This document shows positions 1 to 64,000 of a stretch of 64,000 bases of DNA, piece by piece. The stretch lies in the NCBI GenBank assembly GCA_949317995.1, contig OX439049.1, forward strand, positions 65,461,247 to 65,525,246, in the 5' to 3' direction. This DNA is from Acholoe squamosa (taxonomy: Eukaryota > Annelida > Polychaeta > Phyllodocida > Polynoidae). Every line of letters starts with the position of its first letter. The stretch's first letter is position 1. Made by a program: the position numbers and the translations under genes. The notes under the pieces were generated by a model. It made no database searches and was not told the origin of the DNA. It worked only from the letters and a program-made list of their open reading frames with translations.

Positions 1-830
1 TCATACCTACGAGTGCATCATACCTAGGAGTGCATCATACCTAGGAGTGCATCATACCTACGAGTGCCTCATACCTACGAGTGCATCATACCTACGAGTG
101 CATCATACCTAGGAGTGCATCATACCTAGGAGTGCATCATACCTAGGAGTGCCTCGTACCTAGGAGTGCATCATACCTACGAGTGCATCATACCTAGGAG
201 TGCATCATACGTAGGATTGCATCATACCTAGGAGTGCATCATACCTAGGAGTGCCTCATACCTAGGAGTGCCTCATACCTAGGAGTGCCTCATACCTAGG
301 AGTGCCTCATACCTAGGGGTGCATCATACCTACGAGTGCATCATACCTACGAGTGCATCATACCTACGAGTGCATCATACCTAGGAGTGCATCATACGTA
401 GGAGTGCATCATACCTAGGAGTGCCTCATACCTAGGAGTGCATCATACCTAGGAGTGCCTCATACCTACAAGTGCATCATACCTAGGAGTGCATCATACC
501 TAGGAATGCATCATACCTAGTAGTGCATCATACCTAGGAGTGCATCATACCTACGAGTGCATCATACCTAGGGGTGCATCATACCTAGGAGTGCATCATA
601 CCTAGTAGTGCATCATACCTAGCAGTGCCTCATACCTAGAAGTGCATCATACCTAGGAGTGCATCATACCTAGGGGTGCATCATACCTAGGAGTGCCTCA
701 TACCTACGAGTGCATCATACCTAGGAGTGCATCATACCTACGAGTGCCTCATACCTAGGAGTGCATCATACCTAGGAGTGCATCATACCTAGGAGTGCAT
801 CATACGTAGGAGTGCCTCGTACCTAGGAGT

Positions 831-846
831 GCATATACCTAGGAGT
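831..846 (+). repeat. 16-bp monomer variant GAGTGCATATACCTAG (about 114 copies)
   Basis: One base is missing (GCATCATACC becomes GCATATACC). The form appears at about 831, 1,036, 2,003, 2,206, 3,391, 4,169, 4,379 and so on to 63,401 and 63,978. Distances between markers taken modulo 17 give 110 copies between 1,210 and 62,640, and direct counting agreed in the intervals checked (2, 3, 4, 7 and 11 copies). It usually follows a GCCTCGTACC monomer, which shows that it spread by copying the local order and not by repeated deletion. Confidence 0.9.
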
Positions 847-1130
847 GCATCATACCTAGGAGTGCATCATACCTAGGGGTGCATCATACCTACGAGTGCA
901 TCATACCTACGAGTGCATCATACCTACGAGTGCATCATACCTACGAGTGCATCATACCTAGGAATGCATCATACCTACGAGTGCATCGTACCTAGGAGTG
1001 CATCATACGTAGGAGTGCCTCGTACCTAGGAGTGCATATACCTAGGAGTGCCTCATACCTAGGAGTGCATCGTACCTAGGAGTGCATCATACGTAGGAGT
1101 GCCTCGTACCTAGGAGTGCATCATACCTAC

Positions 1131-1283
1131 GAGTGCATCATACGTAGGAGTGCATCATACGTAGGAGTGCATCATACGTAGGAGTGCATCATACGTAGGA
1201 GTGCATCATGCATATGAGTGCATCATACCTAGGGGCGCATCATACCTAGGGGTGCATCATACCTAGGAGTGCCTCGTACCTAG
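1131..1283 (+). repeat. Marker cassette (first of 27), nine monomers
   Basis: The cassette is four ACGTAG monomers, then the most divergent monomer of the array, GAGTGCATCATGCATAT (changes at positions 12, 14 and 17), then a consensus monomer, GGGCGC, GGGTGC and GCCTCG monomers. It recurs with the same core at all 27 places. The G of ATGCATATG lies at 1210, 2381, 4554, 5725, 7882, 9274, 10768, 12158, 13650, 15144, 16517, 18009, 19299, 22964, 24730, 28090, 32061, 32977, 37947, 39441, 43106, 44872, 47909, 51574, 53340, 57090 and 62640. Each cassette runs from 79 bp before to 73 bp after that base. It contains the overlapping palindromes ATGCAT and CATATG and a cluster of TACGTA. A function is not shown. 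Confidence 0.9.
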
Positions 1284-2777
1284 GAGTGCATCATACCTAC
1301 GAGTGCATCATACCTACGAGTGCATCATACGTAGGAGTGCATCATACCTAGGAGTGCCTCATACCTACGAGTGCATCGTACCTACGAGTGCATCATACCT
1401 ACGAGTGCATCATACCTAGGAGTGCATCATACCTAGGAGTGCATCATACCTACGAGTGCCTCATACCTACGAGTGCATCATACCTACGAGTGCATCATAC
1501 CTAGGAGTGCATCATACCTAGGAGTGCATCATACCTAGGAGTGCCTCGTACCTAGGAGTGCATCATACCTACGAGTGCATCATACCTAGGAGTGCATCAT
1601 ACGTAGGATTGCATCATACCTAGGAGTGCCTCATACCTACAAGTGCATCATACCAAGGAGTGCATCATACCTAGGAATGCATCATACCTAGTAGTGCATC
1701 ATACCTAGGAGTGCATCATACCTACGAGTGCATCATACCTAGGGGTGCATCATACCTAGGAGTGCATCATACCTAGTAGTGCATCATACCTAGCAGTGCC
1801 TCATACCTAGAAGTGCATCATACCTAGGAGTGCATCATACCTAGGGGTGCATCATACCTAGGAGTGCCTCATACCTACGAGTGCATCATACCTAGGAGTG
1901 CATCATACCTAGGAGTGCCTCATACCTAGGAGTGCATCATACCTAGGAGTGCATCATACCTAGGAGTGCATCATACGTAGGAGTGCCTCGTACCTAGGAG
2001 TGCATATACCTAGGAGTGCATCATACCTAGGAGTGCATCATACCTAGGGGTGCATCATACCTACGAGTGCATCATACCTACGAGTGCATCATACCTACGA
2101 GTGCATCATACCTACGAGTGCATCATACCTAGGAATGCATCATACCTACGAGTGCATCGTACCTAGGAGTGCATCATACGTAGGAGTGCCTCGTACCTAG
2201 GAGTGCATATACCTAGGAGTGCCTCATACCTAGGAGTGCATCGTACCTAGGAGTGCATCATACGTAGGAGTGCCTCGTACCTAGGAGTGCATCATACCTA
2301 CGAGTGCATCATACGTAGGAGTGCATCATACGTAGGAGTGCATCATACGTAGGAGTGCATCATACGTAGGAGTGCATCATGCATATGAGTGCATCATACC
2401 TAGGGGCGCATCATACCTAGGGGTGCATCATACCTAGGAGTGCCTCGTACCTAGGAGTGCATCATACCTACGAGTGCATCATACCTACGAGTGCATCATA
2501 CGTAGGAGTGCATCATACCTAGGAGTGCCTCATACCTACGAGTGCATCGTACCTACGAGTGCATCATACCTACGAGTGCATCATACCTAGGAGTGCATCA
2601 TACCTAGGAGTGCATCATACCTACGAGTGCCTCATACCTACGAGTGCATCATACCTACGAGTGCATCATACCTAGGAGTGCATCATACCTAGGAGTGCAT
2701 CATACCTAGGAGTGCCTCGTACCTAGGAGTGCATCATACCTACGAGTGCATCATACCTAGGAGTGCATCATACGTAG

Positions 2778-2880
2778 GATTGCATCATACCTAGGAGTGC
2801 CTCATACCTAGGAGTGCCTCATACCTAGGAGTGCCTCATACCTAGGAGTGCCTCATACCTAGGAGTGCCTCATACCTAGG
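2778..2880 (+). repeat. GATTGC monomer followed by a variable GCCTC run
   Basis: GATTGC is followed by five GCCTC monomers and then a GGGTGC monomer. The same place in other units has a different number: one at about 1,606, three at about 12,672, four at about 25,244 and five at about 28,605. The run length changes in whole monomers while the flanks stay the same, as expected for slippage or unequal exchange among identical neighbours. Confidence 0.8.
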
Positions 2881-3438
2881 GGTGCATCATACCTACGAGT
2901 GCATCATACCTACGAGTGCATCATACCTACGAGTGCATCATACCTAGGAGTGCATCATACGTAGGAGTGCATCATACCTAGGAGTGCCTCATACCTAGGA
3001 GTGCATCATACCTAGGAGTGCCTCATACCTACAAGTGCATCATACCTAGGAGTGCATCATACCTAGGAATGCATCATACCTAGTAGTGCATCATACCTAG
3101 GAGTGCATCATACCTACGAGTGCATCATACCTAGGGGTGCATCATACCTAGGAGTGCATCATACCTAGTAGTGCATCATACCTAGCAGTGCCTCATACCT
3201 AGAAGTGCATCATACGTAGGAGTGCATCATACCTAGGAGTGCATCATACCTAGGAGTGCCTCATACCTACGAGTGCATCATACCTAGGAGTGCATCATAC
3301 CTACGAGTGCCTCATACCTAGGAGTGCATCATACCTAGGAGTGCATCATACCTAGGAGTGCATCATACGTAGGAGTGCCTCGTACCTAGGAGTGCATATA
3401 CCTAGGAGTGCATCATACCTAGGAGTGCATCATACCTA

Positions 3439-6400
3439 CGAGTGCATCATACCTAGGAGTGCATCATACCTAGGAGTGCATCATACCTAGGAGTGCCTCG
3501 TACCTAGGAGTGCATCATACCTACGAGTGCATCATACCTAGGAGTGCATCATACGTAGGATTGCATCATACCTAGGAGTGCCTCATACCTAGGAGTGCCT
3601 CATACCTAGGAGTGCCTCATACCTAGGAGTGCCTCATACCTAGGAGTGCCTCATACCTAGGGGTTCATCATACCTACGAGTGCATCATACCTACGAGTGC
3701 ATCATACCTACGAGTGCATCATACCTAGGAGTGCATCATACGTAGGAGTGCATCATACCTAGGAGTGCCTCATACCTAGGAGTGCATCATACCTAGGAGT
3801 GCCTCATACCTACAAGTGCATCATACCTAGGAGTGCATCATACCTAGGAATGCATCATACCTAGTAGTGCATCATACCTAGGAGTGCATCATACCTACGA
3901 GTGCATCATACCTAGGGGTGCATCATACCTAGGAGTGCATCATACCTAGTAGTGCATCATACCTAGCAGTGCCTCATACCTAGAAGTGCATCATACCTAG
4001 GAGTGCATCATACCTAGGGGTGCATCATACCTAGGAGTGCCTCATACCTACGAGTGCATCATACCTAGGAGTGCATCATACCTACGAGTGCCTCATACCT
4101 AGGAGTGCATCATACCTAGGAGTGCATCATACCTAGGAGTGCATCATACGTAGGAGTGCCTCGTACCTAGGAGTGCATATACCTAGGAGTGCATCATACC
4201 TAGGAGTGCATCATACCTAGGGGTGCATCATACCTACGAGTGCATCATACCTACGAGTGCATCATACCTACGAGTGCATCATACCTACGAGTGCATCATA
4301 CCTAGGAATGCATCATACCTACGAGTGCATCGTACCTAGGAGTGCATCATACGTAGGAGTGCCTCGTACCTAGGAGTGCATATACCTAGGAGTGCCTCAT
4401 ACCTAGGAGTGCATCGTACCTAGGAGTGCATCATACGTAGGAGTGCCTCGTACCTAGGAGTGCATCATACCTACGAGTGCATCATACGTAGGAGTGCATC
4501 ATACGTAGGAGTGCATCATACGTAGGAGTGCATCATACGTAGGAGTGCATCATGCATATGAGTGCATCATACCTAGGGGCGCATCATACCTAGGGGTGCA
4601 TCATACCTAGGAGTGCCTCGTACCTAGGAGTGCATCATACCTACGAGTGCATCATACCTACGAGTGCATCATACGTAGGAGTGCATCATACCTAGGAGTG
4701 CCTCATACCTACGAGTGCATCGTACCTACGAGTGCATCATACCTACGAGTGCATCATACCTAGGAGTGCATCATACCTAGGAGTGCATCATACCTACGAG
4801 TGCCTCATACCTACGAGTGCATCATACCTACGAGTGCATCATACCTAGGAGTGCATCATACCTAGGAGTGCATCATACCTAGGAGTGCCTCGTACCTAGG
4901 AGTGCATCATACCTACGAGTGCATCATACCTAGGAGTGCATCATACGTAGGATTGCATCATACCTAGGAGTGCCTCATACCTACAAGTGCATCATACCTA
5001 GGAGTGCATCATACCTAGGAATGCATCATACCTAGTAGTGCATCATACCTAGGAGTGCATCATACCTACGAGTGCATCATACCTAGGGGTGCATCATACC
5101 TAGGAGTGCATCATACCTAGTAGTGCATCATACCTAGCAGTGCCTCATACCTAGAAGTGCATCATACCTAGGAGTGCATCATACCTAGGGGTGCATCATA
5201 CCTAGGAGTGCCTCATACCTACGAGTGCATCATACCTAGGAGTGCATCATACCTAGGAGTGCCTCATACCTAGGAGTGCATCATACCTAGGAGTGCATCA
5301 TACCTAGGAGTGCATCATACGTAGGAGTGCCTCGTACCTAGGAGTGCATATACCTAGGAGTGCATCATACCTAGGAGTGCATCATACCTAGGGGTGCATC
5401 ATACCTACGAGTGCATCATACCTACGAGTGCATCATACCTACGAGTGCATCATACCTACGAGTGCATCATACCTAGGAATGCATCATACCTACGAGTGCA
5501 TCGTACCTAGGAGTGCATCATACGTAGGAGTGCCTCGTACCTAGGAGTGCATATACCTAGGAGTGCCTCATACCTAGGAGTGCATCGTACCTAGGAGTGC
5601 ATCATACGTAGGAGTGCCTCGTACCTAGGAGTGCATCATACCTACGAGTGCATCATACGTAGGAGTGCATCATACGTAGGAGTGCATCATACGTAGGAGT
5701 GCATCATACGTAGGAGTGCATCATGCATATGAGTGCATCATACCTAGGGGCGCATCATACCTAGGGGTGCATCATACCTAGGAGTGCCTCGTACCTAGGA
5801 GTGCATCATACCTACGAGTGCATCATACCTACGAGTGCATCATACGTAGGAGTGCATCATACCTAGGAGTGCCTCATACCTACGAGTGCATCGTACCTAC
5901 GAGTGCATCATACCTACGAGTGCATCATACCTAGGAGTGCATCATACCTAGGAGTGCATCATACCTACGAGTGCCTCATACCTACGAGTGCATCATACCT
6001 ACGAGTGCATCATACCTAGGAGTGCATCATACCTAGGAGTGCATCATACCTAGGAGTGCCTCGTACCTAGGAGTGCATCATACCTACGAGTGCATCATAC
6101 CTAGGAGTGCATCATACGTAGGATTGCATCATACCTAGGAGTGCATCATACCTAGGAGTGCCTCATACCTAGGAGTGCCTCATACCTAGGAGTGCCTCAT
6201 ACCTAGGAGTGCCTCATACCTAGGGGTGCATCATACCTACGAGTGCATCATACCTACGAGTGCATCATACCTACGAGTGCATCATACCTACGAGTGCATC
6301 ATACCTAGGAGTGCATCATACCTAGGAGTGCCTCATACCTAGGAGTGCATCATACCTAGGAGTGCCTCATACCTACAAGTGCATCATACCTAGGAGTGCA

Positions 6401-6710
6401 TCATACCTAGGAATGCATCATACCTAGTAGTGCATCATACCTAGGAGTGCATCATACCTACGAGTGCATCATACCTAGGGGTGCATCATACCTAGGAGTG
6501 CATCATACCTAGTAGTGCATCATACCTAGCAGTGCCTCATACCTAGAAGTGCATCATACCTAGGAGTGCATCATACCTAGGGGTGCATCATACCTAGGAG
6601 TGCCTCATACCTACGAGTGCATCATACCTAGGAGTGCATCATACCTACGAGTGCCTCATACCTAGGAGTGCATCATACCTAGGAGTGCATCATACCTAGG
6701 AGTGCATCAT
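3439..6710. repeat. 3,344-bp higher-order unit, copy 2 (right end incomplete)
   Basis: Second member of the tandem pair that starts at 95. The match holds to about 6,710, where the order changes (extra consensus monomers before the ACGTAG monomer). One private difference in copy 1 is ACCAAGG at about 1,651 where copy 2 has the usual ACCTAGG. Copy 2 begins with a partial repeat of the 0.8-kb head of the unit: 3,439 also matches 2,658 at an offset of 781 bp. Confidence 0.78.
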
Positions 6711-9194
6711 ACCTAGGAGTGCATCATACGTAGGAGTGCCTCGTACCTAGGAGTGCATCATACCTAGGAGTGCATCATACCTAGGGGTGCATCATACCTA
6801 CGAGTGCATCATACCTACGAGTGCATCATACCTACGAGTGCATCATACCTACGAGTGCATCATACCTAGGAATGCATCATACCTACGAGTGCATCGTACC
6901 TAGGAGTGCATCATACGTAGGAGTGCCTCGTACCTAGGAGTGCATATACCTAGGAGTGCCTCATACCTAGGAGTGCATCGTACCTAGGAGTGCATCATAC
7001 GTAGGAGTGCATCATACCTAGGAGTGCATCATACCTAGGAGTGCCTCGTACCTAGGAGTGCATCATACGTAGGAGTGCATCATACGTAGGAGTGCATCAT
7101 ACGTAGGATTGCATCATACCTAGGAGTGCCTCATACCTACAAGTGCATCATACCTAGGAGTGCATCATACCTAGGAATGCATCATACCTAGTAGTGCATC
7201 ATACCTAGGAGTGCATCATACCTACGAGTGCATCATACCTAGGGGTGCATCATACCTAGGAGTGCATCATACCTAGTAGTGCATCATACCTAGCAGTGCC
7301 TCATACCTAGAAGTGCATCATACCTAGGAGTGCATCATACCTAGGAGTGCATCATACCTACGAGTGCCTCATACCTACGAGTGCATCATACCTACGAGTG
7401 CATCATACCTAGGAGTGCATCATACCTAGGAGTGCATCATACCTAGGAGTGCCTCGTACCTAGGAGTGCATCATACCTACGAGTGCATCATACCTAGGAG
7501 TGCATCATACGTAGGATTGCATCATACCTAGGAGTGCCTCATACCTAGGAGTGCCTCATACCTAGGAGTGCCTCATACCTAGGAGTGCCTCATACCTAGG
7601 GGTGCATCATACCTACGAGTGCATCATACCTACGAGTGCATCATACCTAGGAGTGCATCATACCTAGGAGTGCATCATACGTAGGAGTGCCTCGTACCTA
7701 GGAGTGCATATACCTAGGAGTGCCTCATACCTAGGAGTGCATCGTACCTAGGAGTGCATCATACGTAGGAGTGCCTCGTACCTAGGAGTGCATCATACCT
7801 ACGAGTGCATCATACGTAGGAGTGCATCATACGTAGGAGTGCATCATACGTAGGAGTGCATCATACGTAGGAGTGCATCATGCATATGAGTGCATCATAC
7901 CTAGGGGCGCATCATACCTAGGGGTGCATCATACCTAGGAGTGCCTCGTACCTAGGAGTGCATCATACCTACGAGTGCATCATACCTACGAGTGCATCAT
8001 ACGTAGGAGTGCATCATACCTAGGAGTGCCTCATACCTACGAGTGCATCGTACCTACGAGTGCATCATACCTACGAGTGCATCATACCTAGGAGTGCATC
8101 ATACCTAGGAGTGCATCATACCTACGAGTGCCTCATACCTACGAGTGCATCATACCTACGAGTGCATCATACCTAGGAGTGCATCATACCTAGGAGTGCA
8201 TCATACCTAGGAGTGCCTCGTACCTAGGAGTGCATCATACCTACGAGTGCATCATACCTAGGAGTGCATCATACGTAGGATTGCATCATACCTAGGAGTG
8301 CCTCATACCTAGGAGTGCCTCATACCTAGGAGTGCCTCATACCTAGGAGTGCCTCATACCTAGGAGTGCCTCATACCTAGGGGTGCATCATACCTACGAG
8401 TGCATCATACCTACGAGTGCATCATACCTACGAGTGCATCATACCTAGGAGTGCATCATACGTAGGAGTGCATCATACCTAGGAGTGCCTCATACCTAGG
8501 AGTGCATCATACCTAGGAGTGCCTCATACCTACAAGTGCATCATACCTAGGAGTGCATCATACCTAGGAATGCATCATACCTAGTAGTGCATCATACCTA
8601 GGAGTGCATCATACCTACGAGTGCATCATACCTAGGGGTGCATCATACCTAGGAGTGCATCATACCTAGTAGTGCATCATACCTAGCAGTGCCTCATACC
8701 TAGAAGTGCATCATACCTAGGAGTGCATCATACCTAGGGGTGCATCATACCTAGGAGTGCCTCATACCTACGAGTGCATCATACCTAGGAGTGCATCATA
8801 CCTACGAGTGCCTCATACCTAGGAGTGCATCATACCTAGGAGTGCATCATACCTAGGAGTGCATCATACGTAGGAGTGCCTCGTACCTAGGAGTGCATAT
8901 ACCTAGGAGTGCATCATACCTAGGAGTGCATCATACCTAGGGGTGCATCATACCTACGAGTGCATCATACCTACGAGTGCATCATACCTACGAGTGCATC
9001 ATACCTACGAGTGCATCATACCTAGGAATGCATCATACCTACGAGTGCATCGTACCTAGGAGTGCATCATACGTAGGAGTGCCTCGTACCTAGGAGTGCA
9101 TATACCTAGGAGTGCCTCATACCTAGGAGTGCATCGTACCTAGGAGTGCATCATACGTAGGAGTGCCTCGTACCTAGGAGTGCATCATACCTAC
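6711..9194. repeat. Mosaic satellite segment between two tandem pairs
   Basis: No gene. It continues the same variant alphabet but in a mixed order. The marker at 7,882 lies 2,157 bp from the previous one (the equivalent interval in the first unit is 2,173 bp) and 1,392 bp before the next. GATTGC monomers near 7,107, 7,516 and 8,279 are followed by different numbers of GCCTC monomers. The part from about 8.8 kb resembles the part from about 13.2 kb at the 4,376-bp offset, so the boundary with the next block is gradual. Confidence 0.7.
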
Positions 9195-11079
9195 GAGTGC
9201 ATCATACGTAGGAGTGCATCATACGTAGGAGTGCATCATACGTAGGAGTGCATCATACGTAGGAGTGCATCATGCATATGAGTGCATCATACCTAGGGGC
9301 GCATCATACCTAGGGGTGCATCATACCTAGGAGTGCCTCGTACCTAGGAGTGCATCATACCTACGAGTGCATCATACCTACGAGTGCATCATACGTAGGA
9401 GTGCATCATACCTAGGAGTGCCTCATACCTACGAGTGCATCGTACCTACGAGTGCATCATACCTACGAGTGCATCATACCTAGGAGTGCATCATACCTAG
9501 GAGTGCATCATACCTACGAGTGCCTCATACCTACGAGTGCATCATACCTACGAGTGCATCATACCTAGGAGTGCATCATACCTAGGAGTGCATCATACCT
9601 AGGAGTGCCTCGTACCTAGGAGTGCATCATACCTACGAGTGCATCATACCTAGGAGTGCATCATACGTAGGATTGCATCATACCTAGGAGTGCCTCATAC
9701 CTAGGAGTGCCTCATACCTAGGAGTGCCTCATACCTAGGAGTGCCTCATACCTAGGGGTGCATCATACCTACGAGTGCATCATACCTACGAGTGCATCAT
9801 ACCTAGGAGTGCATCATACCTAGGAGTGCATCATACCTAGGAGTGCATCATACCTAGTAGTGCATCATACCTAGGAGTGCATCATACCTACGAGTGCATC
9901 ATACCTAGGGGTGCATCATACCTAGGAGTGCATCATACCTAGTAGTGCATCATACCTAGCAGTGCCTCATACCTAGAAGTGCATCATACCTAGGAGTGCA
10001 TCATACCTAGGGGTGCATCATACCTAGGAGTGCCTCATACCTACGAGTGCATCATACCTAGGAGTGCATCATACCTAGGAGTGCCTCATACCTAGGAGTG
10101 CATCATACCTAGGAGTGCATCATACCTAGGAGTGCATCATACGTAGGAGTGCCTCGTACCTAGGAGTGCATATACCTAGGAGTGCATCATACCTAGGAGT
10201 GCATCATACCTAGGGGTGCATCATACCTACGAGTGCATCATACCTACGAGTGCATCATACCTACGAGTGCATCATACCTACGAGTGCATCATACCTAGGA
10301 ATGCATCATACCTACGAGTGCATCGTACCTACGAGTGCATCATACCTACGAGTGCATCATACCTAGGGGTGCATCATACCTACGAGTGCATCATACCTAC
10401 GAGTGCATCATACCTACGAGTGCATCATACCTAGGGGTGCATCATACCTAGGAGTGCCTCATACCTAGGAGTGCATCATACCTAGGAGTGCATCATACCT
10501 AGGAGTGCATCATACGTAGGAGTGCATCATACGTAGGAGTACATCATACCTAGGAGTGCATCATACCTAGCAGTGCCTCGTACCTAGGAGTGCATATACC
10601 TAGGAGTGCCTCATACCTAGGAGTGCATCGTACCTAGGAGTGCATCATACGTAGGAGTGCCTCGTACCTAGGAGTGCATCATACCTACGAGTGCATCATA
10701 CGTAGGAGTGCATCATACGTAGGAGTGCATCATACGTAGGAGTGCATCATACGTAGGAGTGCATCATGCATATGAGTGCATCATACCTAGGGGCGCATCA
10801 TACCTAGGGGTGCATCATACCTAGGAGTGCCTCGTACCTAGGAGTGCATCATACCTACGAGTGCATCATACCTACGAGTGCATCATACGTAGGAGTGCAT
10901 CATACCTAGGAGTGCCTCATACCTACGAGTGCATCGTACCTACGAGTGCATCATACCTACGAGTGCATCATACCTAGGAGTGCATCATACCTAGGAGTGC
11001 ATCATACCTACGAGTGCCTCATACCTACGAGTGCATCATACCTACGAGTGCATCATACCTAGGAGTGCATCATACCTAC

Positions 11080-11200
11080 GAGTGCCTTGTACCTAGGAGT
11101 GCATATACCTAGGAGTGCCTCATACCTAGGAGTGCATCGTACCTACGAGTGCATCATACATAGGAGTGCCCCGTACCTAGGAGTGCATATACCTAGGAGT
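11080..11200 (+). repeat. CCTTGT / ATACATAGG / GCCCCGT segment (first of about 14)
   Basis: A fixed series of about seven monomers: GCCTTGTACC, a 16-bp monomer, GCCTCATACC, ATCGTACC, ATACATAGG, GCCCCGTACC and another 16-bp monomer. It recurs near 12.48, 15.46, 16.83, 19.69, 25.05, 28.41, 33.29 (without the GCCCCGT part), 33.46, 39.83, 45.19, 48.29, 53.66 and 57.41 kb. It is absent from the first 11 kb, so it marks a later higher-order family. Confidence 0.8.
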
Positions 11201-12061
11201 GCATCATACCTAGGAGTGCCTCGTACCTAGGAGTGCATCATACCTACGAGTGCATCATACCTAGGAGTGCATCATACGTAGGATTGCATCATACCTAGGA
11301 GTGTCTCATACCTAGGAGTGCCTCATACCTAGGAGTGCCTCATACCTAGGAGTGCCTCATACCTAGGGGTGCATCATACCTACGAGTGCATCATACCTAC
11401 GAGTGCATCATACCTACGAGTGCATCATACCTAGGAGTGCATCATACGTAGGAGTGCATCATACCTAGGAGTGCCTCATACCTAGGAGTGCATCATACCT
11501 AGGAGTGCCTCATACCTACAAGTGCATCATACCTAGGAGTGCATCATACCTAGGAGTGCATCATACCTAGTAGTGCATCATACCTAGGAGTGCATCATAC
11601 CTACGAGTGCATCATACCTAGGGGTGCATCATACCTAGGAGTGCATCATACCTAGTAGTGCATCATACCTAGCAGTGCCTCATACCTACAAGTGCATCAT
11701 ACCTAGGAGTGCATCATACCTAGGGGTGCATCATACCTAGGAGTGCCTCATACCTACGAGTGCATCATACCTAGGAGTGCATCATACCTAGGAGTGCCTC
11801 ATACCTAGGAGTGCATCATACCTAGGAGTGCATCATACCTAGGAGTGCATCATACCTAGGAGTGCCTCGTACCTAGGAGTGCATATACCTAGGAGTGCAT
11901 CATACCTAGGAGTGCATCATACCTAGGAGTGCATCATACGTAGGAGTGCCTCGTACCTAGGAGTGCATATACCTAGGAGTGCCTCATACCTAGGAGTGCA
12001 TCGTACCTAGGAGTGCATCATACGTAGGAGTGCCTCGTACCTAGGAGTGCATCATACCTAC

Positions 12062-12231
12062 GAGTGCATCATACGTAGGAGTGCATCATACGTAGGAGTG
12101 CATCATACGTAGGAGTGCATCATACGTAGGAGTGCATCATACGTAGGAGTGCATCATGCATATGAGTGCATCATACCTAGGGGCGCATCATACCTAGGGG
12201 TGCATCATACCTAGGAGTGCCTCGTACCTAG
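12062..12231 (+). repeat. Marker cassette with five instead of four ACGTAG monomers
   Basis: Upstream of the marker at 12,158 there are five consecutive ACGTAG monomers; the other cassettes I checked have four (or four with one decayed to ATGTAG or ATGGAG). This one-monomer gain accounts exactly for the 17-bp difference between the 1,390-bp interval here and the 1,373-bp interval at 15,144-16,517. Confidence 0.85.
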
Positions 12232-13570
12232 GAGTGCATCATACCTACGAGTGCATCATACCTACGAGTGCATCATACGTAGGAGTGCATCATACCTAGG
12301 AGTGCCTCATACCTACGAGTGCATCGTACCTACGAGTGCATCATACCTACGAGTGCATCATACCTAGGAGTGCATCATACCTAGGAGTGCATCATACCTA
12401 CGAGTGCCTCATACCTACGAGTGCATCATACCTACGAGTGCATCATACCTACGAGTGCATCATACCTAGGAGTGCCTTGTACCTAGGAGTGCATATACCT
12501 AGGAGTGCCTCATACCTAGGAGTGCATCGTACCTACGAGTGCATCATACATAGGAGTGCCCCGTACCTAGGAGTGCATATACCTAGGAGTGCATCATACC
12601 TAGGAGTGCCTCGTACCTAGGAGTGCATCATACCTACGAGTGCATCATACCTAGGAGTGCATCATACGTAGGATTGCATCATACCTAGGAGTGCCTCATA
12701 CCTAGGAGTGCCTCATACCTAGGAGTGCCTCATACCTAGGGGTGCATCATACCTACGAGTGCATCATACCTACGAGTGCATCATACCTACGAGTGCATCA
12801 TACCTAGGAGTGCATCATACGTAGGAGTGCATCATACCTAGGAGTGCCTCATACCTAGGAGTGCATCATACCTAGGAGTGCCTCATACCTACAAGTGCAT
12901 CATACCTAGGAGTGCATCATACCTAGGAATGCATCATACCTAGTAGTGCATCATACCTAGGAGTGCATCATACCTACGAGTGCATCATACCTAGGGGTGC
13001 ATCATACCTAGGAGTGCATCATACCTAGTAGTGCATCATACCTAGCAGTGCCTCATACCTAGAAGTGCATCATACCTAGGAGTGCATCATACCTAGCAGT
13101 GCCTCATACCTAGAAGTGCATCATACCTAGGAGTGCCTCATACCTACGAGTGCATCATACCTAGGAGTGCATCATACCTAGGAGTGCCTCATCCCTAGGA
13201 GTGCATCATACCTAGGAGTGCATCATACCTAGGAGTGCATCATACGTAGGAGTGCCTCGTACCTAGGAGTGCATATACCTAGGAGTGCATCATACCTAGG
13301 AGTGCATCATACCTAGGGGTGCATCATACCTACGAGTGCATCATACCTACGAGTGCATCATACCTACGAATGCATCATACCTACGAGTGCATCATACCTA
13401 GGAATGCATCATACCTACGAGTGCATCGTACCTAGGAGTGCATCATACGTAGGAGTGCCTCGTACCTAGGAGTGCATATACCTAAGAGTGCCTCATACCT
13501 AGGAGTGCATCGTACCTAGGAGTGCATCATACGTAGGAGTGCCTCGTACCTAGGAGTGCATCATACCTAC

Positions 13571-19019: not shown

Positions 19020-19040
19020 TGCATCATACCTAGGAGTGCA
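19020..19040. other. Breakpoint of a 204-bp (12-monomer) deletion
   Basis: Compared with 38.4-39.4 kb, the interval between the GTCCCTC monomer at 18,476 and the marker at 19,299 is 204 bp shorter, exactly 12 monomers. Here a run of CTAC monomers passes straight to ACGTAG monomers. The copies at 38.9, 14.6 and 10.2 kb carry the intervening GGAATGC/ATCGTA/GGGTGC series. Because several other copies have the longer form, loss here is more likely than gain elsewhere. The exact base cannot be fixed within the repeat. Confidence 0.75.
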
Positions 19041-52700: not shown

Positions 52701-55195
52701 GAATGCATCATACCTACGAGTGCATCGTACCTACGAGTGCATCATACCTACGAGTGCATCATACCTAGGGGTGCATCATACCTACGAGTGCATCATACCT
52801 ACGAGTGCATCATACCTACGAGTGCATCATACCTAGGGGTGCATCATACCTAGGAGTGCCTCATACCTAGGAGTGCATCATACCTAGGAGTGCATCATAC
52901 CTAGGAGTGCATCATACGTAGGAGTGCATCATACGTAGGAGTACATCATACCTAGGAGTGCATCATACCTAGCAGTGCCTCGTACCTAGGAGTGCATCAT
53001 ACCTAGGAGTGCATCATACCTAGGAGTGCATCATACCTAGGAGTGCATCATACCTAGGGGTGCATCATACCTAGGAGTGCCTCATACCTAGGAGTGCCTC
53101 ATACCTAGGAGTGCATCATACCTAGGAGTGCATCATACGTAGGAGTGCCTCGTACCTAGGAGTGCATATACCTAGGAGTGCCTCATACCTAGGAGTGCAT
53201 CGTACCTAGGAGTGCATCATACGTAGGAGTGCCTCGTACCTAGGAGTGCATCATACCTACGAGTGCATCATACGTAGGAGTGCATCATACGTAGGAGTGC
53301 ATCATACGTAGGAGTGCATCATACGTAGGAGTGCATCATGCATATGAGTGCATCATACCTAGGGGCGCATCATACCTAGGGGTGCATCATACCTAGGAGT
53401 GCCTCGTACCTAGGAGTGCATCATACCTACGAGTGCATCATACCTACGAGTGCATCATACGTAGGAGTGCATCATACCTAGGAGTGCCTCATACCTACGA
53501 GTGCATCGTACCTACGAGTGCATCATACCTACGAGTGCATCATACCTAGGAGTGCATCATACCTAGGAGTGCATCATACCTACGAGTGCCTCATACCTAC
53601 GAGTGCATCATACCTACGAGTGCATCATACCTAGGAGTGCATCATACCTAGGAGTGCCTTGTACCTAGGAGTGCATATACCTAGGAGTGCCTCATACCTA
53701 GGAGTGCATCGTACCTACGAGTGCATCATACATAGGAGTGCCCCGTACCTAGGAGTGCATATACCTAGGAGTGCATCATACCTAGGAGTGCCTCGTACCT
53801 AGGAGTGCATCATACCTACGAGTGCATCATACCTAGGAGTGCATCATACGTAGGATTGCATCATACCTAGGAGTGCCTCATACCTAGGAGTGCCTCATAC
53901 CTAGGAGTGCCTCATACCTAGGAGTGCCTCATACCTAGGGGTGCATCATACCTACGAGTGCATCATACCTACGAGTGCATCATACCTACGAGTGCATCAT
54001 ACCTACGAGTGCATCATACGTAGGAGTGCATCATACCTAGGAGTGCCTCATACCTAGGAGTGCATCATACCTAGGAGTGCCTCATACCTACAAGTGCATC
54101 ATACCTAGGAGTGCATCATACCTAGGAGTGCATCATACCTAGTAGTGCATCATACCTAGGAGTGCATCATACCTACGAGTGCATCATACCTAGGGGTGCA
54201 TCATACCTAGGAGTGCATCATACCTAGTAGTGCATCATACCTAGCAGTGCCTCATACCTACAAGTGCATCATACCTAGGAGTGCATCATACCTAGGGGTG
54301 CATCATACCTAGGAGTGCCTCATACCTACGAGTGCATCATACCTAGGAGTGCATCATACCTAGGAGTGCCTCATACCTAGGAGTGCATCATACCTAGGAG
54401 TGCATCATACCTAGGAGTGCATCATACGTAGGAGTGCCTCGTACCTAGGAGTGCATATACCTAGGAGTGCATCATACCTAGGAGTGCATCATACCTAGGG
54501 GTGCATCATACCTAGGAGTGCATCATACCTACGAGTGCATCATACCTACGAGTGCATCATACCTAGGAGTGCATCATACCTAGGAATGCATCATACCTAC
54601 GAGTGCATCGTACCTACGAGTGCATCGTACCTACGAGTGCATCATACCTAGGGGTGCATCATACCTACGAGTGCATCATACCTAGGAGTGCATCATACCT
54701 ACGAGTGCATCATACCTAGGGCCGCATCATACCTAGGAGTGCCTCATACCCAGGAGTGCATCATACCTAGGAGTGCATCATACCTAGGAGTGCATCATAC
54801 GTAGGAGTGCATCATATGTAGGAGTACATCATACCTAGGGGTGCATCATACCTAGGGGTGCATCATACCTAGGAGTGCCTCATACCTAGGAGTGCATCAT
54901 ACCTAGGAGTGCATCATACCTAGGAGTGCATCATACCTAGGAGTGCCTCGTACCTAGTAGTGCATATACCTAGGAGTGCCTCATACCTAGGAGTGCATCG
55001 TACCTAGGAGTGCATCATACCTAGGAGTGCATCATACCTACGAGTGCATCATACCTAGGGGTGCATCATACCTACGAGTGCATCATACCTAGGGGTGCAT
55101 CATACCTACGAGTGCATCATACCTAGGAGTGCCTCATACCTAGGGGTGCATCATACCTACGAGTGCATCATACCTAGGAGTGCATCATACCTATG
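46730..55195. repeat. 8,468-bp tandem duplicate of 38.27-46.73 kb
   Basis: Every landmark of 38.27-46.73 kb recurs 8,468 bp later: GTCCCTC 38,414/46,882, markers 39,441/47,909, 43,106/51,574 and 44,872/53,340. 8,468 bp is 499 monomers, 15 of them the 16-bp form. The junction is near 46,725-46,735, where a CTAC monomer is followed by the GCCTCG...GATTGC series. I noted about seven base differences, including GGCCGCATC near 54,720 against GGGTGCATC near 46,252. Identity is therefore above 99.8 per cent by eye. Confidence 0.87.
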
Positions 55196-58100
55196 AGTGC
55201 ATCATACCTAGGGGTGCATCATACCTACGAGTGCATCATACCTACGAGTGCATCATACCTAGTAGTGCATCATACCTACGAGTGCATCATACCTAGGAGT
55301 GCATCATACCTAGTAGTGCATCATACCTACGAGTGCATCATACCTACGAGTGCATCATACCTAGGAGTGCATCGTACCTAGGGGTGCATCATACCTACGA
55401 GTGCATCATACCTAGGAGTGCATCATACCTAGGAGTGCCTCATACCTAGGGGTGCATCATACCTAGTAGTGCATCATACCTACGAGTGCATCATACCTAC
55501 GAGTGCATCATACCTACGAGTGCATCATACCTAGGGGTGCATCATACCTACGAGTGCATCATACCTACGAGTGCATCATACCTAGGAGTGCCTCGTACCT
55601 AGGAGTGCATCATACCTACGAGTGCATCATACCTAGGGGTGCATCATACCTACGAGTGCATCATACCTAGGAGTGCCTCATACCTAGGGGTGCATCATAC
55701 CTAGGAGTGCCTCATACCTAGGAGTGCCTCATACCTAGGAGTGCATCATACCTAGGAGTGCCTCATACCTAGGAGTGCATCATACCTATGAGTGCATCAT
55801 ACCTAGGAGTGCCTCATACCTAGGAGTGCATCATACCTACGAGTGCCTCATACCTAGGAGTGCCTCATACCTAGGAGTGCATCATACCTAGGAGTGCATC
55901 ATACCTAGGAGTGCATCATACCTACGAGTGCCTCATACCTAGGAGTGCCTCATACCTACGAGTGCATCATACCTACGAGTGCATCATACCTAGGAGTGCC
56001 TCATACCTAGGAGTGCATCATACCTACGAGTGCATCATACCTACGAGTGCATCATACCTACGAGTGCATCGTACCTAGGAGTGCAGCATATCTAGGAGTG
56101 CATCATACCTAGGAGTGCATATACCTAGGGGTGCATCATACCTAGGAGTGCCTCATACCTACGAGTGCATCATACCTACGAGTGCATCATACCTAGGAGT
56201 GCATCATACCTACGAGTGCATCATACGTAGGAGTGCCTCGTACCTAGGAGTGCATCATACCTAGGAGTGCCTCATACCTAGGGGTGCATCATACCTAGGA
56301 GTGCATCATACCTAGGAGTGCATCATACCTAGGAGTGCATCATACGTAGGAGTGCATCATACCTAGGAGTGCCTCATACCTAGGAGTGCATCATACCTAG
56401 GAGTGCCTCATACCTACAAGTGCATCATACCTAGGAGTGCATCATACCTAGGAGTGCATCATACCTAGTAGTGCATCATACCTAGGAGTGCATCATACCT
56501 ACGAGTGCATCATACCTAGGGGTGCATCATACCTACGAGTGCATCATACCTAGGAGTGCCTCATACCTAGGGGTGCATCATACCTAGGGGTGCATCATAC
56601 CTACGAGTGCATCATACCTAGGAGTGCCTCATACCTAGGGGTGCATCATACCTAGGGGTGCATCATACCTAGGAGTGCCTCGTACCTAGGAGTGCATATA
56701 CCTAGGAGTGCATCATACCTAGCAGTGCCTCGTACCTAGGAGTGCATCATACCTAGGAGTGCATCATACCTAGGAGTGCATCATACCTAGGAGTGCATCA
56801 TACCTAGGGGTGCATCATACCTAGGAGTGCCTCATACATAGGAGTGCCTCATACCTAGGAGTGCATCATACCTAGGAGTGCATCATACGTAGGAGTGCCT
56901 CGTACCTAGGAGTGCATATACCTAGGAGTGCCTCATACCTAGGAGTGCATCGTACCTAGGAGTGCATCATACGTAGGAGTGCCTCGTACCTAGGAGTGCA
57001 TCATACCTACGAGTGCATCATACGTAGGAGTGCATCATATGTAGGAGTGCATCATACGTAGGAGTGCATCATACGTAGGAGTGCATCATGCATATGAGTG
57101 CATCATACCTAGGGGCGCATCATACCTAGGGGTGCATCATACCTAGGAGTGCCTCGTACCTAGGAGTGCATCATACCTACGAGTGCATCATACCTACGAG
57201 TGCATCATACGTAGGAGTGCATCATACCTACGAGTGCCTCATACCTACGAGTGCATCGTACCTACGAGTGCATCATACCTACGAGTGCATCATACCTAGG
57301 AGTGCATCATACCTAGGAGTGCATCATACCTACGAGTGCCTCATACCTACGAGTGCATCATACCTACGAGTGCATCATACCTAGGAGTGCATCATACCTA
57401 GGAGTGCCTTGTACCTAGGAGTGCATATACCTAGGAGTGCCTCATACCTAGGAGTGCATCGTACCTAGGAGTGCATCATACATAGGAGTGCCCCGTACCT
57501 AGGAGTGCATATACCTAGGAGTGCATCATACCTAGGAGTGCCTCGTACCTAGGAGTGCATCATACCTACGAGTGCATCATACCTAGGAGTGCATCATACG
57601 TAGGATTGCATCATACCTAGGAGTGCCTCATACCTAGGAGTGCCTCATACCTAGGAGTGCCTCATACCTAGGAGTGCCTCATACCTAGGAGTGCCTCATA
57701 CCTAGGGGTGCATCATACCTACGAGTGCATCATACCTACGAGTGCATCATACCTAGGGGTGCCTCATACCTAGGGGTGCATCATACCTACGAGTGCATCA
57801 TACCTACGAGTGCATCATACCTACGAGTGCATCATACCTAGGAGTGCATCATACCTACGAGTGCATCATACCTAGGGGTGCATCATACCTAGGAGTGCAT
57901 CATACCTAGTAGTGCCTCATACCTAGGAGTGCCTCATACCTAGGGGTGCATCATACCTACGAGTGCATCATACCTACGAGTGCATCATACCTACGAGTGC
58001 ATCATACCTAGGAGTGCATCATACGTAGGAGTGCATCATACCTAGGAGTGCCTCATACCTAGGAGTGCATCATACCTAGGAGTGCCTCATACCTAAAAGT

Positions 58101-60848
58101 GCATCATACCTAGGAGTGCATCATACCTAGGAGTGCATCATACCTAGTAGTGCATCATACCTAGGAGTGCATCATACCTACGAGTGCATCATACCTAGGG
58201 GTGCATCATACCTAGGAGTGCATCATACCTAGTAGTGCATCATACCTAGCAGTGCCTCATACCTACAAGTGCATCATACCTAGGAGTGCATCATACCTAG
58301 GGGTGCATCATACCTAGGAGTGCCTCATACCTACGAGTGCATCATACCTAGGAGTGCATCATACCTAGGAGTGCCTCATACCTAGGAGTGCATCATACCT
58401 AGGAGTGCATCATACCTAGGAGTGCATCATACGTAGGAGTGCCTCGTACCTAGGAGTGCATATACCTAGGAGTGCATCATACCTAGGAGTGCATCATACC
58501 TAGGGGTGCATCATACCTAGGAGTGCATCATACCTACGAGTGCATCATACCTACGAGTGCATCATACCTAGGAGTGCATCATACCTAGGAATGCATCATA
58601 CCTACGAGTGCATCGTACCTACGAGTGCATCATACCTACGAGTGCATCATACCTAGGGGTGCATCATACCTACGAGTGCATCATACCTAGGAGTGCATCA
58701 TATCTACGAGTGCATCATACCTAGGGGTGCATCATACCTAGGAGTGCCTCATACCCAGGAGTGCATCATACCTAGGAGTGCATCATACCTAGGAGTGCAT
58801 CATACGTAGGAGTGCATCATACGTAGGAGTACATCATACCTAGGGGTGCATCATACCTAGGGGTGCATCATACCTAGGAGTGCCTCATACCTAGGAGTGC
58901 ATCATACCTAGGAGTGCATCATACCTAGGAGTGCATCATACCTAGGAGTGCCTCGTACCTAGTAGTGCATATACCTAGGAGTGCCTCATACCTAGGAGTG
59001 CATCGTACCTAGGAGTGCATCATACCTAGGAGTGCATCATACCTACGAGTGCATCATACCTAGGGGTGCATCATACCTACGAGTGCATCATACCTAGGGG
59101 TGCATCATACCTACGAGTGCATCATACCTAGGAGTGCCTCATACCTAGGGGTGCATCATACCTACGAGTGCATCATACCTAGGAGTGCATCATACCTATG
59201 AGTGCATCATACCTAGGGGTGCATCATACCTACGAGTGCATCATACCTACGAGTGCATCATACCTAGTAGTGCATCATACCTACGAGTGCATCATACCTA
59301 GGAGTGCATCATACCTAGTAGTGCATCATACCTACGAGTGCATCATACCTACGAGTGCATCATACCTAGGAGTGCATCGTACCTAGGGGTGCATCATACC
59401 TACGAGTGCATCATACCTAGGAGTGCATCATACCTAGGAGTGCCTCATACCTAGGGGTGCATCATACCTAGTAGTGCATCATACCTACGAGTGCATCATA
59501 CCTACGAGTGCATCATACCTAGGAGTGCATCATACCTAGGGGTGCATCATACCTACGAGTGCATCATACCTAGGAGTGCATCATACCTAGGAGTGCCTCG
59601 TACCTAGGAGTGCATCATACCTACGAGTGCATCATACCTAGGGGTGCATCATACCTACGAGTGCATCATACCTAGGAGTGCCTCATACCTAGGGGTGCAT
59701 CATACCTAGGAGTGCCTCATACCTAGGAGTGCCTCATACCCAGGAGTGCCTCATACCTAGGAGTGCCTCATACCTAGGAGTGCATCATACCTACGAGTGC
59801 ATCATACCTACGAGTGCCTCATACCTAGGAGTGCATCATACCTACGAGTGCATCATACCTAGGAGTGCCTCATACCTAGGAGTGCATCATACCTAGGAGT
59901 GCATCATACCTAGGAGTGCATCATACCTACGAGTGCCTCCTACCTATGAGTGCATCATACCTACGAGTGCCTCATACCTACGAGTGCATCATACCTACGA
60001 GTGCATCATACCTAGGAGTGCATCATACCTAGGAGTGCATCGTACCTAGGAGTGCATCATACCTAGGAGTGCATCATACCTAGGAGTGCATATACCTAGG
60101 GGTGCATCATACCTAGGAGTGCCTCATACCTACGAGTGCATCATACCTACGAGTGCATCATACCTAGGAGTGCATCATACCTAGGAGTGCATCATACGTA
60201 GGAGTGCCTCGTACCTAGGAGTGCATCATACCTAGGAGTGCCTCATACCTAGGGGTGCATCATACCTAGGAGTGCATCATACCTAGGAGTGCATCATACC
60301 TAGGAGTGCATCATACGTAGGAGTGCATCATACCTAGGAGTGCCTCATACCTAGGAGTGCATCATACCTAGGAGTGCCTCATACCTACAAGTGCATCATA
60401 CCTAGGAGTGCATCATACCTAGGAGTGCATCATACCTAGTAGTGCATCATACCTAGGAGTGCATCATACCTACGAGTGCATCATACCTAGGGGTGCATCA
60501 TACCTACGAGTGCATCATACCTAGGAGTGCCTCATACCTAGGGGTGCATCATACCTAGGGGTGCATCATACCTACGAGTGCATCATACCTAGGAGTGCCT
60601 CATACCTAGGGGTGCATCATACCTAGGGGTGCATCATACCTAGGAGTGCCTCGTACCTAGGAGTGCATATACCTAGGAGTGCATCATACCTAGCAGTGCC
60701 TCGTACCTAGGAGTGCATCATACCTAGGAGTGCATCATACCTAGGAGTGCATCATACCTAGGAGTGCATCATACCTAGGGGTGCATCATACCTAGGAGTG
60801 CCTCATACCTAGGAGTGCCTCATACCTAGGAGTGCATCATACCTAGGG
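55195..60848. repeat. Macro block, right half, copy 2
   Basis: Matches 26.19-31.85 kb at offset 29,000. It follows the 8,468-bp duplicate without the 390-bp gap found in copy 1. Private changes include GAGTGCCTC near 55,841 (GAGTGCATC at 26,841) and CTATGAG near 59,944 (CTACGAG at 30,944). The match stops at about 60,848. Confidence 0.86.
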
Positions 60849-63272
60849 GTGCATCATACCTACGAGTGCATCATACCTAGGAGTGCATCATACCTATGAG
60901 TGCATCATACCTAGGGGTGCATCATACCTACGAGTGCATCATACCTACGAGTGCATCATACCTAGTAGTGCATCATACCTACGAGTGCATCATACCTAGG
61001 AGTGCATCATACCTAGTAGTGCATCATACCTACGAGTGCATCATACCTACGAGTGCATCATACCTAGGAGTGCATCGTACCTAGGGGTGCATCATACCTA
61101 CGAGTGCATCATACCTAGGAGTGCATCATACCTAGGAGTGCCTCATACCTAGGGGTGCATCATACCTAGTAGTGCATCATACCTACGAGTGCATCATACC
61201 TACGAGTGCATCATACCTAGGAGTGCATCATACCTAGGGGTGCATCATACCTACGAGTGCATCATACCTAGGAGTGCATCATACCTAGGAGTGCCTCGTA
61301 CCTAGGAGTGCATCATACCTACGAGTGCATCATACCTAGGGGTGCATCATACCTACGAGTGCATCATACCTAGGAGTGCCTCATACCTAGGGGTGCATCA
61401 TACCTAGGAGTGCATCATACCTAGGAGTGCCTCATACCTAGGGGTGCATCATACCTACGAGTGCATCATACCTACGAGTGCCTCATACCTAGGAGTGCCT
61501 CATACCTACGAGTGCATCATACCTACGAGTGCATCATACCTAGGAGTGCCTCATACCTAGGAGTGCATCATACCTACGAGTGCATCATACCTACGAGTGC
61601 ATCATACCTACGAGTGCATCGTACCTAGGAGTGCATCATACCTAGGAGTGCATCATACCTAGGAGTGCATATACCTAGGGGTGCATCATACCTAGGAGTG
61701 CCTCATACCTACGAGTGCATCATACCTACGAGTGCATCATACCTAGGAGTGCATCATACCTACGAGTGCATCATACGTAGGAGTGCCTCGTACCTAGGAG
61801 TGCATCATACCTAGGAGTGCCTCATACCTAGGGGTGCATCATACCTAGGAGTGCATCATACCTAGGAGTGCATCATACCTAGGAGTGCATCATACGTAGG
61901 AGTGCATCATACCTAGGAGTGCCTCATACCTAGGAGTGCATCATACCTAGGAGTGCCTCATACCTACAAGTGCATCATACCTAGGAGTGCATCATACCTA
62001 GGAGTGCATCATACCTAGTAGTGCATCATACCTAGGAGTGCATCATACCTACGAGTGCATCATACCTACGAGTGCATCATACCTAGGGGTGCATCATACC
62101 TACGAGTGCATCATACCTAGGGGTGCATCATACCTAGGGGTGCATCATACCTACGAGTGCATCATACCTAGGAGTGCCTCATACCTAGGGGTGCATCATA
62201 CCTAGGGGTGCATCATACCTAGGAGTGCCTCGTACCTAGGAGTGCATATACCTAGGAGTGCATCATACCTAGCAGTGCCTCATACCTAGGAGTGCATCAT
62301 ACCTAGGAGTGCATCATACCTAGGAGTGCATCATACCTAGGAGTACATCATACCTAGGGGTGCATCATACCTAGGAGTGCCTCATACCTAGGAGTGCCTC
62401 ATACCTAGGAGTGCATCATACCTAGGAGTGCATCATACGTAGGAGTGCCTCGTACCTAGGAGTGCATATACCTAGGAGTGCCTCATACCTAGGAGTGCAT
62501 CGTACCTAGGAGTGCATCATACGTAGGAGTGCCTCGTACCTAGGAGTGCATCATACCTACGAGTGCATCATACGTAGGAGTGCATCATATGTAGGAGTGC
62601 ATCATACGTAGGAGTGCATCATACGTAGGAGTGCATCATGCATATGAGTGCATCATACCTAGGGGCGCATCATACCTAGGGGTGCATCATACCTAGGAGT
62701 GCCTCGTACCTAGGAGTGCATCATACCTACGAGTGCATCATACCTACGAGTGCATCATACGTAGGAGTGCATCATACCTACGAGTGCCTCATACCTACGA
62801 GTGCATCGTACCTACGAGTGCATCATACCTACGAGTGCATCATACCTAGGAGTGCATCATACCTAGGAGTGCATCATACCTACGAGTGCCTCATACCTAC
62901 GAGTGCATCATACCTACGAGTGCATCATACCTAGGAGTGCATCATACCTAGGAGTGCATCATACCTAGGAGTGCCTCGTACCTAGGAGTGCATCATACCT
63001 ACGAGTGCATCATACCTAGGAGTGCATCATACGTAGGATTGCATCATACCTAGGAGTGCCTCATACCTAGGAGTGCCTCATACCTAGGAGTGCCTCATAC
63101 CTAGGAGTGCCTCATACCTAGGGGTGCATCATACCTACGAGTGCATCATACCTACGAGTGCATCATACCTAGGAGTGCATCATACCTAGGAGTGCATCAT
63201 ACCTAGGAGTGCATCATACCTAGGAGTGCCTCATACCTAGGAGTGCATCATACCTAGGAGTGCCTCATACCT
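60848..63272. repeat. Third copy of the 21.17-23.60 kb segment
   Basis: From 60,848 the sequence switches register and follows 21,172 onward at offset 39,676 (CTATGAG at 60,895 and 21,219; markers at 62,640 and 22,964). The same segment also lies at 41.3-43.7 and 49.8-52.2 kb. The match ends at about 63,272: this copy reads CTACGAG where the 23.6-kb copy reads CTACAAG. The marker at 62,640 is 5,550 bp from the previous one, the longest interval in the window. Confidence 0.83.
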
Positions 63273-64000
63273 ACGAGTGCCTCATACCTACGAGTGCATC
63301 ATACCTACGAGTGCATCATACCTAGGAGTGCATCATACCTAGGAGTGCATCGTACCTAGGAGTGCATCATACCTAGGAGTGCATCATACCTAGGAGTGCA
63401 TATACCTAGGGGTGCATCATACCTAGGAGTGCCTCATACCTACGAGTGCATCATACCTACGAGTGCATCATACCTAGGAGTGCATCATACCTAGGAGTGC
63501 ATCATACGTAGGATTGCCTCGTACCTAGGAGTGCATCATACCTAGGAGTGCCTCATACCTAGGGGTGCATCATACCTAGGAGTGCATCATACCTAGGAGT
63601 GCATCATACCTAGGAGTGCATCATACGTAGGAGTGCATCATACCTAGGAGTGCCTCATACCTAGGAGTGCATCATACCTAGGAGTGCCTCATACCTACAA
63701 GTGCATCATACCTAGGAGTGCATCATACCTAGGAGTGCATCATACCTAGTAGTGCATCATACCTAGGAGTGCATCATACCTACGAGTGCATCATACCTAG
63801 GGGTGCATCATACCTACGAGTGCATCATACCTAGGAGTGCCTCATACCTAGGGGTGCATCATACCTAGGGGTGCATCATACCTACGAGTGCATCATACCT
63901 AGGAGTGCCTCATACCTAGGGGTGCATCATACCTAGGGGTGCATCATACCTAGGAGTGCCTCGTACCTAGGAGTGCATATACCTAGGAGTGCATCATACC
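63272..64000. repeat. Third copy of the 30.96-31.69 kb segment
   Basis: Follows 30,962-31,690 at offset 32,310 to the last base of the window; it also matches 59.96-60.69 kb at offset 3,310. A landmark is the 16-bp monomer at 63,401, matched at 31,091 and 60,091. A private change is GATTGCCTC near 63,513 where the other copies read GAGTGCCTC. The array runs off the window here. Confidence 0.82.

Follow-up and report, generated by a model that had tools for sequence, protein, structure and literature searches.

Nested block duplications in a 17-bp satellite array near a chromosome end of the annelid Acholoe squamosa

The stretch of DNA that we analyzed, called the window below, is 64,000 bp long and corresponds to positions 65,461,247 to 65,525,246 of contig OX439049.1 (C15) of Acholoe squamosa. 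Tandem Repeats Finder reported it as a single row (positions 1 to 64000) with a period of 17, 91% matches, and 0% indels. The consensus monomer is TCATACCTAGGAGTGCA, and it is repeated head to tail, in a single orientation, across the entire window as one array. Wrap-around parsing divided it into 3,772 monomers of 67 types: 3,657 of 17 bp, 114 of 16 bp, and one 7-bp end piece. Monomers vary at position 10 (G to C), position 17 (A to C), position 7 (C to G), and positions 3 and 12 (A to G at both).

There are 58 open reading frames of at least 40 amino acids in the window, with a longest of 100 amino acids. Most have recurring lengths, which is expected from frame drift in a 17-bp repeat, and they were not taken as genes. 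A prokaryotic or viral origin was also rejected, because no exact 26-base match was found among prokaryote genome contigs or viral contigs. The predicted fold of window positions 1 to 200 was no better than the folds of shuffled sequences (z = 0.09). The 17-letter monomer string was absent from the open-access papers searched, and the open papers that matched a 17-bp satellite concern bacteria or viruses, going by their titles. Judged by open papers, the satellite is apparently undescribed.

The array extends past both ends of the window. Its full extent is C15:65,310,439-65,565,402 (254,964 bp), and its right end lies 0.75 Mb from the right telomere of the 66.3-Mb contig (66,314,732 bases; the genome comprises 1.48 Gb in 63 contigs). 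TTAGGG repeats are present at both ends of this contig, which runs from telomere to telomere, and the 264 kb of joined sequence that holds the array contains no N. This telomere repeat and the genome size would both be in keeping with an animal. The full array was parsed into 15,027 monomers of 97 types, two end pieces included, and there were no foreign inserts or inverted stretches in the monomer parse of the 254,964 bp. Monomers of 17 bp account for 14,544 of the 15,027, and another 481 are 16 bp long. Almost all of the latter (479/481) start with TATA and form one class of 1-bp deletion, with the base lost near the start; the other two lack a base elsewhere.

An initial annotation of the window had proposed a higher-order organization, in which neighboring monomers commonly differ at 1 to 3 of their 17 positions and distant units have the same monomer order. 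The first part of this was borne out. Among adjacent pairs of full-length monomers in the window, 2,859 of 3,656 have 1 to 3 differences, and 733 of 3,656 are identical. The mean number of differences per 17 positions is 1.40 for adjacent monomers versus 1.51 for random pairs, so neighbors are barely more similar than random monomers.

For the second part, each monomer was encoded as a letter and the letter string was compared with itself. The window string contains 1,242 diagonal runs of at least 10 monomers and 326 of at least 20, with a longest run of 154 monomers, whereas three shuffles of the string gave no run of at least 10 and longest runs of only 7 to 8. Runs of at least 20 take in 89% of the window monomers, and identity off the diagonal is better than identity between random monomers. 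All six of the lags that had been predicted are present, and they are among the 13 lags with the most matched monomers: 8,468 bp (491 matched monomers), 20,142 bp (401), 29,000 bp (313), 4,376 bp (192), 3,344 bp (158), and 19,938 bp (119). Further strong lags in the window are 28,610 bp (392) and 5,363 bp (227).

With mismatches allowed, the six best block pairs in the window have 99.76 to 99.89% base identity, and distant units do share their monomer order. The top pair, at lag 8,468, is 8,451 bp long and alike in 98.6% of its monomers and 99.89% of its bases. It is a tandem pair of an 8,468-bp (499-monomer) unit at window positions 38266 to 55184, with copies at 38266-46716 and 46734-55184 that differ in 7 monomers. 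A 7.2-kb block (7,161 bp, positions 19024 to 26184) has copies at 39166-46326 (lag 20,142) and 47634-54794 (lag 28,610), and a 5.7-kb block (5,669 bp, positions 26168 to 31836) has one at 55168-60836 (lag 29,000). Two shorter blocks are each alike in 95.9% of monomers with their copies: 3,277 bp at positions 86 to 3362, copied at 3430-6706 (lag 3,344), and 3,307 bp at positions 8830 to 12136, copied at 13206-16512 (lag 4,376). Finally, a 19.5-kb block at positions 41303 to 60836, which overlaps the 8,468-bp pair, is repeated beyond the right end of the window at a lag of 22,844 bp, with differences in 10 of 1,151 monomers. No tandem unit of fixed length was found in the window, where many spacings occur (499, 316, 69, 82, 88, 236 monomers, and others) and none is dominant. 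Adjacent monomers thus differ while the six best block pairs are nearly identical, and this contrast defines higher-order organization. Therefore, an array of 17-bp monomers with higher-order organization is confirmed.

Exact runs in the letter string of the full array reach 734 monomers. In single control runs, the maximum was 9 for a shuffled string and 12, 25, and 31 for first-, second-, and third-order Markov strings, respectively. The proportion of the 15,027 monomers that lie in a block pair is 98% for pairs of at least 50 monomers, 95% for at least 100, 67% for at least 500, and 41% for at least 1,000. The longest block pair spans 33.1 kb at a lag of 90,120 bp, with differences in 9 of 1,952 monomers, and one 11.6-kb pair is without any difference. 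Repeat levels of about 1 to 4 kb, 8.5 kb, 22.8 kb, and 44 to 46 kb can be distinguished, and they are irregular and nested.

The widest of these levels is represented by three tandem super-units of 44 to 46 kb each. Super-unit A (C15:65,351,921-65,397,904) is followed by B (C15:65,397,905-65,441,565) and then by C (C15:65,441,566-65,488,025; 46,460 bp). The right part of C occupies positions 1 to 26779 of the window, and A and B lie to the left of the window. Indels apart, the aligned parts differ in 5 of 2,257 monomers between A and B, 9 of 2,611 between A and C, and 4 of 2,285 between B and C; pairs of 17-bp monomers contain 4, 6, and 4 base differences, respectively. Six distinct indels distinguish the super-units, with sizes of 101, 2, 127, 186, 1, and 453 monomers, the large ones being summed from alignment fragments. 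(Sizes of 99 and 313 are sums or differences of these six; for example, 313 is 127 plus 186.) An indel count made by chaining block pairs was dropped, because 1,824 of its 2,117 junctions had lengths of 200 to 600 monomers and probably arose from spurious chaining across nested repeats.

Each super-unit has private indels and private base changes, and this bears on whether the structure might be an artifact of assembly. Satellite pieces that were duplicated or misjoined would make the super-units and the near-identical blocks partly false, and mixed reads would then account for the single-base swaps between copies that are described below. Long near-identical copies, such as the 11.6-kb pair without a difference and the 734-monomer exact run, are the hardest case for assembly, and the base differences are largely swaps of common alleles. 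However, private changes in the super-units argue against an artifact, as do copies at many graded levels of divergence rather than perfect copies alone, a contig that reaches both telomeres, and the lack of any N in the joined sequence. We regard this explanation as quite unlikely.

The median monomer divergence is 3.8% for block pairs of 50 to 100 monomers, 4.3% for 100 to 200, 2.4% for 200 to 800, and 0.4% for the five pairs of more than 800. The widest level of duplication looks youngest, in a link between size and age that is weakened by indels, which split old blocks into short ones.

Taken as a whole, the array is likely to be non-coding satellite DNA, located close to a chromosome end, that grew by repeated in-register segmental duplication. 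The sequence shows blocks of about 50 to 2,700 monomers in multiple copies and nested order, with the 17-bp phase preserved, and the copies are distinguished by large indels and a small number of base changes. There are no partial monomers at the many block joins, so the joins hold this phase. The copying would have involved homologous exchange out of register, either between sister chromatids or within the array, and unequal crossing-over and break-induced or slipped replication are candidate routes. The indels between super-units are informative here. Those of 101, 127, and 186 monomers fall on tandem pairs of equal size (116 to 179 monomers long, with 94 to 100% identity), which is the footprint of unequal exchange. 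However, those of 453, 2, and 1 monomers have no tandem pair of matching size. This suggests that exchange between aligned blocks explains only part of the changes and that some breaks used the likeness of monomers alone, which may suffice for exchange at some joins. Even so, block-scale duplication in register was probably brought about by unequal exchange. Ordinary point mutation would be superposed on this block copying and so, less certainly, would short-tract gene conversion, by which single monomers would exchange one common allele for another.

We also simulated duplication in an array of 6,000 monomers, starting from arbitrary frequencies and running each setting once with total turnover kept about equal, as a check of scale and not as a fit. 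The proportion of matching neighbors was 0.89 with single-monomer steps, 0.55 with 3-monomer steps, and 0.12 to 0.16 with steps of 30 to 250 monomers. In the full array it is 0.198, versus 0.136 at random. This is relevant to the idea that most of the growth of the array came from slippage in steps of one or a few monomers, the mode of a short minisatellite, with the block order as a by-product. Such growth would agree with a neighbor match somewhat above random and with the 1- and 2-monomer indels between super-units, but the simulated 1- and 3-monomer steps overshoot the observed match, and their longest runs were 62 and 69 monomers (in 6,000) compared with the 734 observed (in 15,027). Slippage as the main mode of growth is therefore extremely improbable, unless some other force interrupts stretches of equal neighbors. 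The observed value is slightly above those of the long-step runs, so it is likely that some short steps occurred in addition to block duplication.

To describe the edges of the array, we divided it into segments of 60 monomers and recorded the best match of each elsewhere. A perfect copy exists for 168 of 250 segments, whereas the best match is 0.35, 0.35, and 0.52 for the first three segments and 0.40 for the last. The array therefore has a homogeneous core and divergent edges. Nine segments have a best match below 0.7, and the five of these that are outside the four end segments may straddle block joins. A long unbroken array with a homogenized core and divergent edges is reminiscent of alpha satellite, and it might serve as the functional centromere of the chromosome, with selection or drive maintaining its homogeneity. 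We consider this most unlikely, because the array is so close to the telomere, the window has no CENP-B box with 2 or fewer mismatches (0 matches versus 28.2 expected by chance), and the one 200-base stretch that was folded showed no excess of hairpins. The array carries no implied function and may be passive heterochromatin.

The differences between block copies provide a view of events within single monomers. Homologous monomers of block copies were placed in 1,627 groups of at least three, and the rarer state was taken as derived if the commoner one was at least twice as frequent. This polarized 94 events: 89 single-base changes, 3 double changes, and 2 length changes. Swaps between alleles that are common at the position make up 43 of the 89 single-base changes, and 25 of these 43 are C/G swaps at position 10; the others are at position 17 (7 swaps), position 7 (6), position 3 (4), and position 12 (1). 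When all G/C changes are considered, 25 of 36 are at position 10, 6 are at position 7, and 5 are spread over six other G/C sites together. The probability that 25 or more of the 36 G/C changes fall on one of eight sites is about 3 × 10^-14. Swaps are also frequent in the 14 long pairs with the least divergence (1% or less), where 22 of the 38 base differences are of this type (a further 5, involving 16-bp monomers, were excluded). Therefore, misalignment of old copies is not their cause. Either a process at the scale of the monomer or below is also at work, or copies were mixed during assembly. Mixed reads would yield identical swaps, and copies this similar are hard to assemble. The initial annotation had homogenization acting on long segments and not on single monomers; the simulation and the block copies uphold the first half of that statement, but with 43 of 89 changes being swaps of common alleles, the second half is not established.

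A separate observation concerns CpG sites, where the per-base frequency of deamination-type changes is 6.7 times that of other sites (11 events at CpG, 14 elsewhere). This is suggestive of methylation, although the events are too few to build on.

The direction of swapping is balanced at position 10 (13/12), position 17 (3/4), and position 3 (2/2) and unbalanced at position 7 (5/1). A balanced flow is equally expected from mutation at equilibrium. Simple arithmetic on allele frequencies predicts about 13 swaps at position 10 and about 6 at position 12, versus 25 and 1 seen. In a search for donors among neighboring monomers, the new allele was shared at offset -1 in 29 of 89 cases versus 25.3 expected, without a clear excess, and the other offsets up to 3 ranged from 23 of 84 (23.1 expected) to 31 of 86 (25.3 expected). 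Differences between copies were not clustered either, with 20 of 351 gaps being 2 monomers or less versus 21.5 expected. Some of this could fit a mutation hot spot, in which position 10 in CCTAGG/CCTACG mutates both ways and exchange plays no part: position 10 has about twice the swaps that its allele frequencies predict, donor neighbors and clustering are both absent, and the flow is as balanced as equilibrium would make it. However, positions 17, 7, and 3 also swap between their own common alleles (7, 6, and 4 events), and the six remaining G/C sites contribute just 5 G/C changes together. A hot spot is thus possible but somewhat unlikely. In our view, short gene conversion would be the best explanation of the swaps. 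A more specific proposal is that two turnover processes can be separated base by base, one being nested block duplication and the other a short exchange focused on the C/G of position 10 in the CCTAGG palindrome. This is doubtful, but if true, it would mean that a site-preferring conversion or strand-switch process operates within the satellite and can be read from one assembled array.

The array cleanly exemplifies a type of repeated DNA that was already known rather than a new type, and it leaves the known picture of satellite evolution unchanged. Its value lies in a short monomer with few alleles, which makes copying events legible as a letter string and the array a good test bed for satellite turnover, including step size, break sites, the reach of conversion, and the age of the levels. 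It also illustrates that such units need not be regular and may be nested at several levels. A unit of 17 bp falls in the size range of minisatellites (VNTRs). Ordinary minisatellites are far shorter than 255 kb, and the array differs from them in its 255-kb length and in keeping monomer order over blocks.

Higher-order repeats of alpha satellite have a regular unit, are centromeric, and contain CENP-B boxes. The pattern in the window had been likened to them, and this holds for the higher-order pattern as such, but loosely, because the units here are irregular and nested and have no fixed length. The array is unlike alpha satellite in its 17-bp period over the window (it is set apart by period, not by sequence comparison), as well as in the absence of a CENP-B box and of a fixed unit. 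The alpha satellite monomer is 171 bp, according to PMC4585704. Alpha satellite is described in PMC11062924 as having a homogeneous core that is flanked by more divergent sequence, and as having expanded in layers. In human alpha satellite, according to PMC2853522, crossovers homogenize arrays, whereas conversion and mutation diversify them. The array studied here resembles these descriptions in its homogeneous core and divergent edges, and the same two processes that we propose are described there (PMC2853522).

The small monomer had been contrasted with the tenfold larger one of alpha satellite, but it is not unusual in itself, because HSat3 and deer satellite I precede it; both had already shown that higher-order structure can exist without a monomer of nucleosome size. 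Human DYZ1/HSat3 has a pentanucleotide basic unit, by a title cited in PMC4022460, and the same paper gives it a 3.6-kb repeat unit and gives HSat2 of human chromosome 1 a 1.77-kb unit. By these descriptions, the array is like DYZ1 and HSat2 in having kilobase units on a very short basic unit. With block copies of at least 1.2 kb on a 17-bp monomer, it works like HSat3, and we make no claim of descent. However, DYZ1 and HSat2 keep one unit length over megabases, whereas the units here are irregular, few in copy number, and nested, with sizes of up to 46 kb in an array of 255 kb. The satellite I of deer (cervids) has 31-bp subrepeats, which are more alike by position across species than inside one unit, as stated in PMC7835801. 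On that description, the two arrays share small subrepeats in a fixed order within a longer unit. They differ in scale and setting, since the deer unit is about 0.9 kb with 18 to 21 subrepeats, whereas the A. squamosa array is built of blocks of 50 to 2,700 monomers near a telomere.

Single-base swaps between block copies, which exchange alleles common at that monomer position, were unevenly spread over the 17-bp monomer. The C/G alternative at position 10 accounted for 25 of the 43 swaps in the whole array, against the approximately 13 expected by our own arithmetic from allele frequencies. Position 10 switches between copies more frequently than the other polymorphic positions. We also compared C-to-T and G-to-A changes across the array (C15:65310439-65565402, where C15 is the contig carrying it). 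Their per-base frequency at CpG was 6.7 times that elsewhere (11 events at CpG and 14 elsewhere). This bias in the sequence hints that the array might be CpG methylated.

Ten probes surrounding the array (C15, 65.00-66.10 Mb; L013, L014, L038, L039, L041, L047, L050, L054, L055, and L056) lie in other minisatellites, with periods of 11 to 85 bp. The word GTGCATCA of the 17-bp monomer recurs in two of these ten, the 11-bp repeat of L054 and the 42-bp repeat of L014.

A 511-aa open frame (L036:180-1712, in a stretch of C15) starts 24 bp past the right edge of the array. Pfam placed a reverse transcriptase domain in it (PF00078, E = 1e-39). The frame starts almost at the array edge; the element seems to have been either cut by the border or inserted there. 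The same contig carries another retroelement frame, with a reverse transcriptase match at L006:473-931 (PF00078, E = 4e-19, Pfam). To the right of the array lie L036:7686-8006 (minus strand) and adjoining frames. Pfam found no family for the single piece submitted from these; by eye, we take them to resemble the protein-primed type B DNA polymerases of Maverick elements. The retroelement frames in L007 and L009, also judged by eye, resemble DIRS-type elements.
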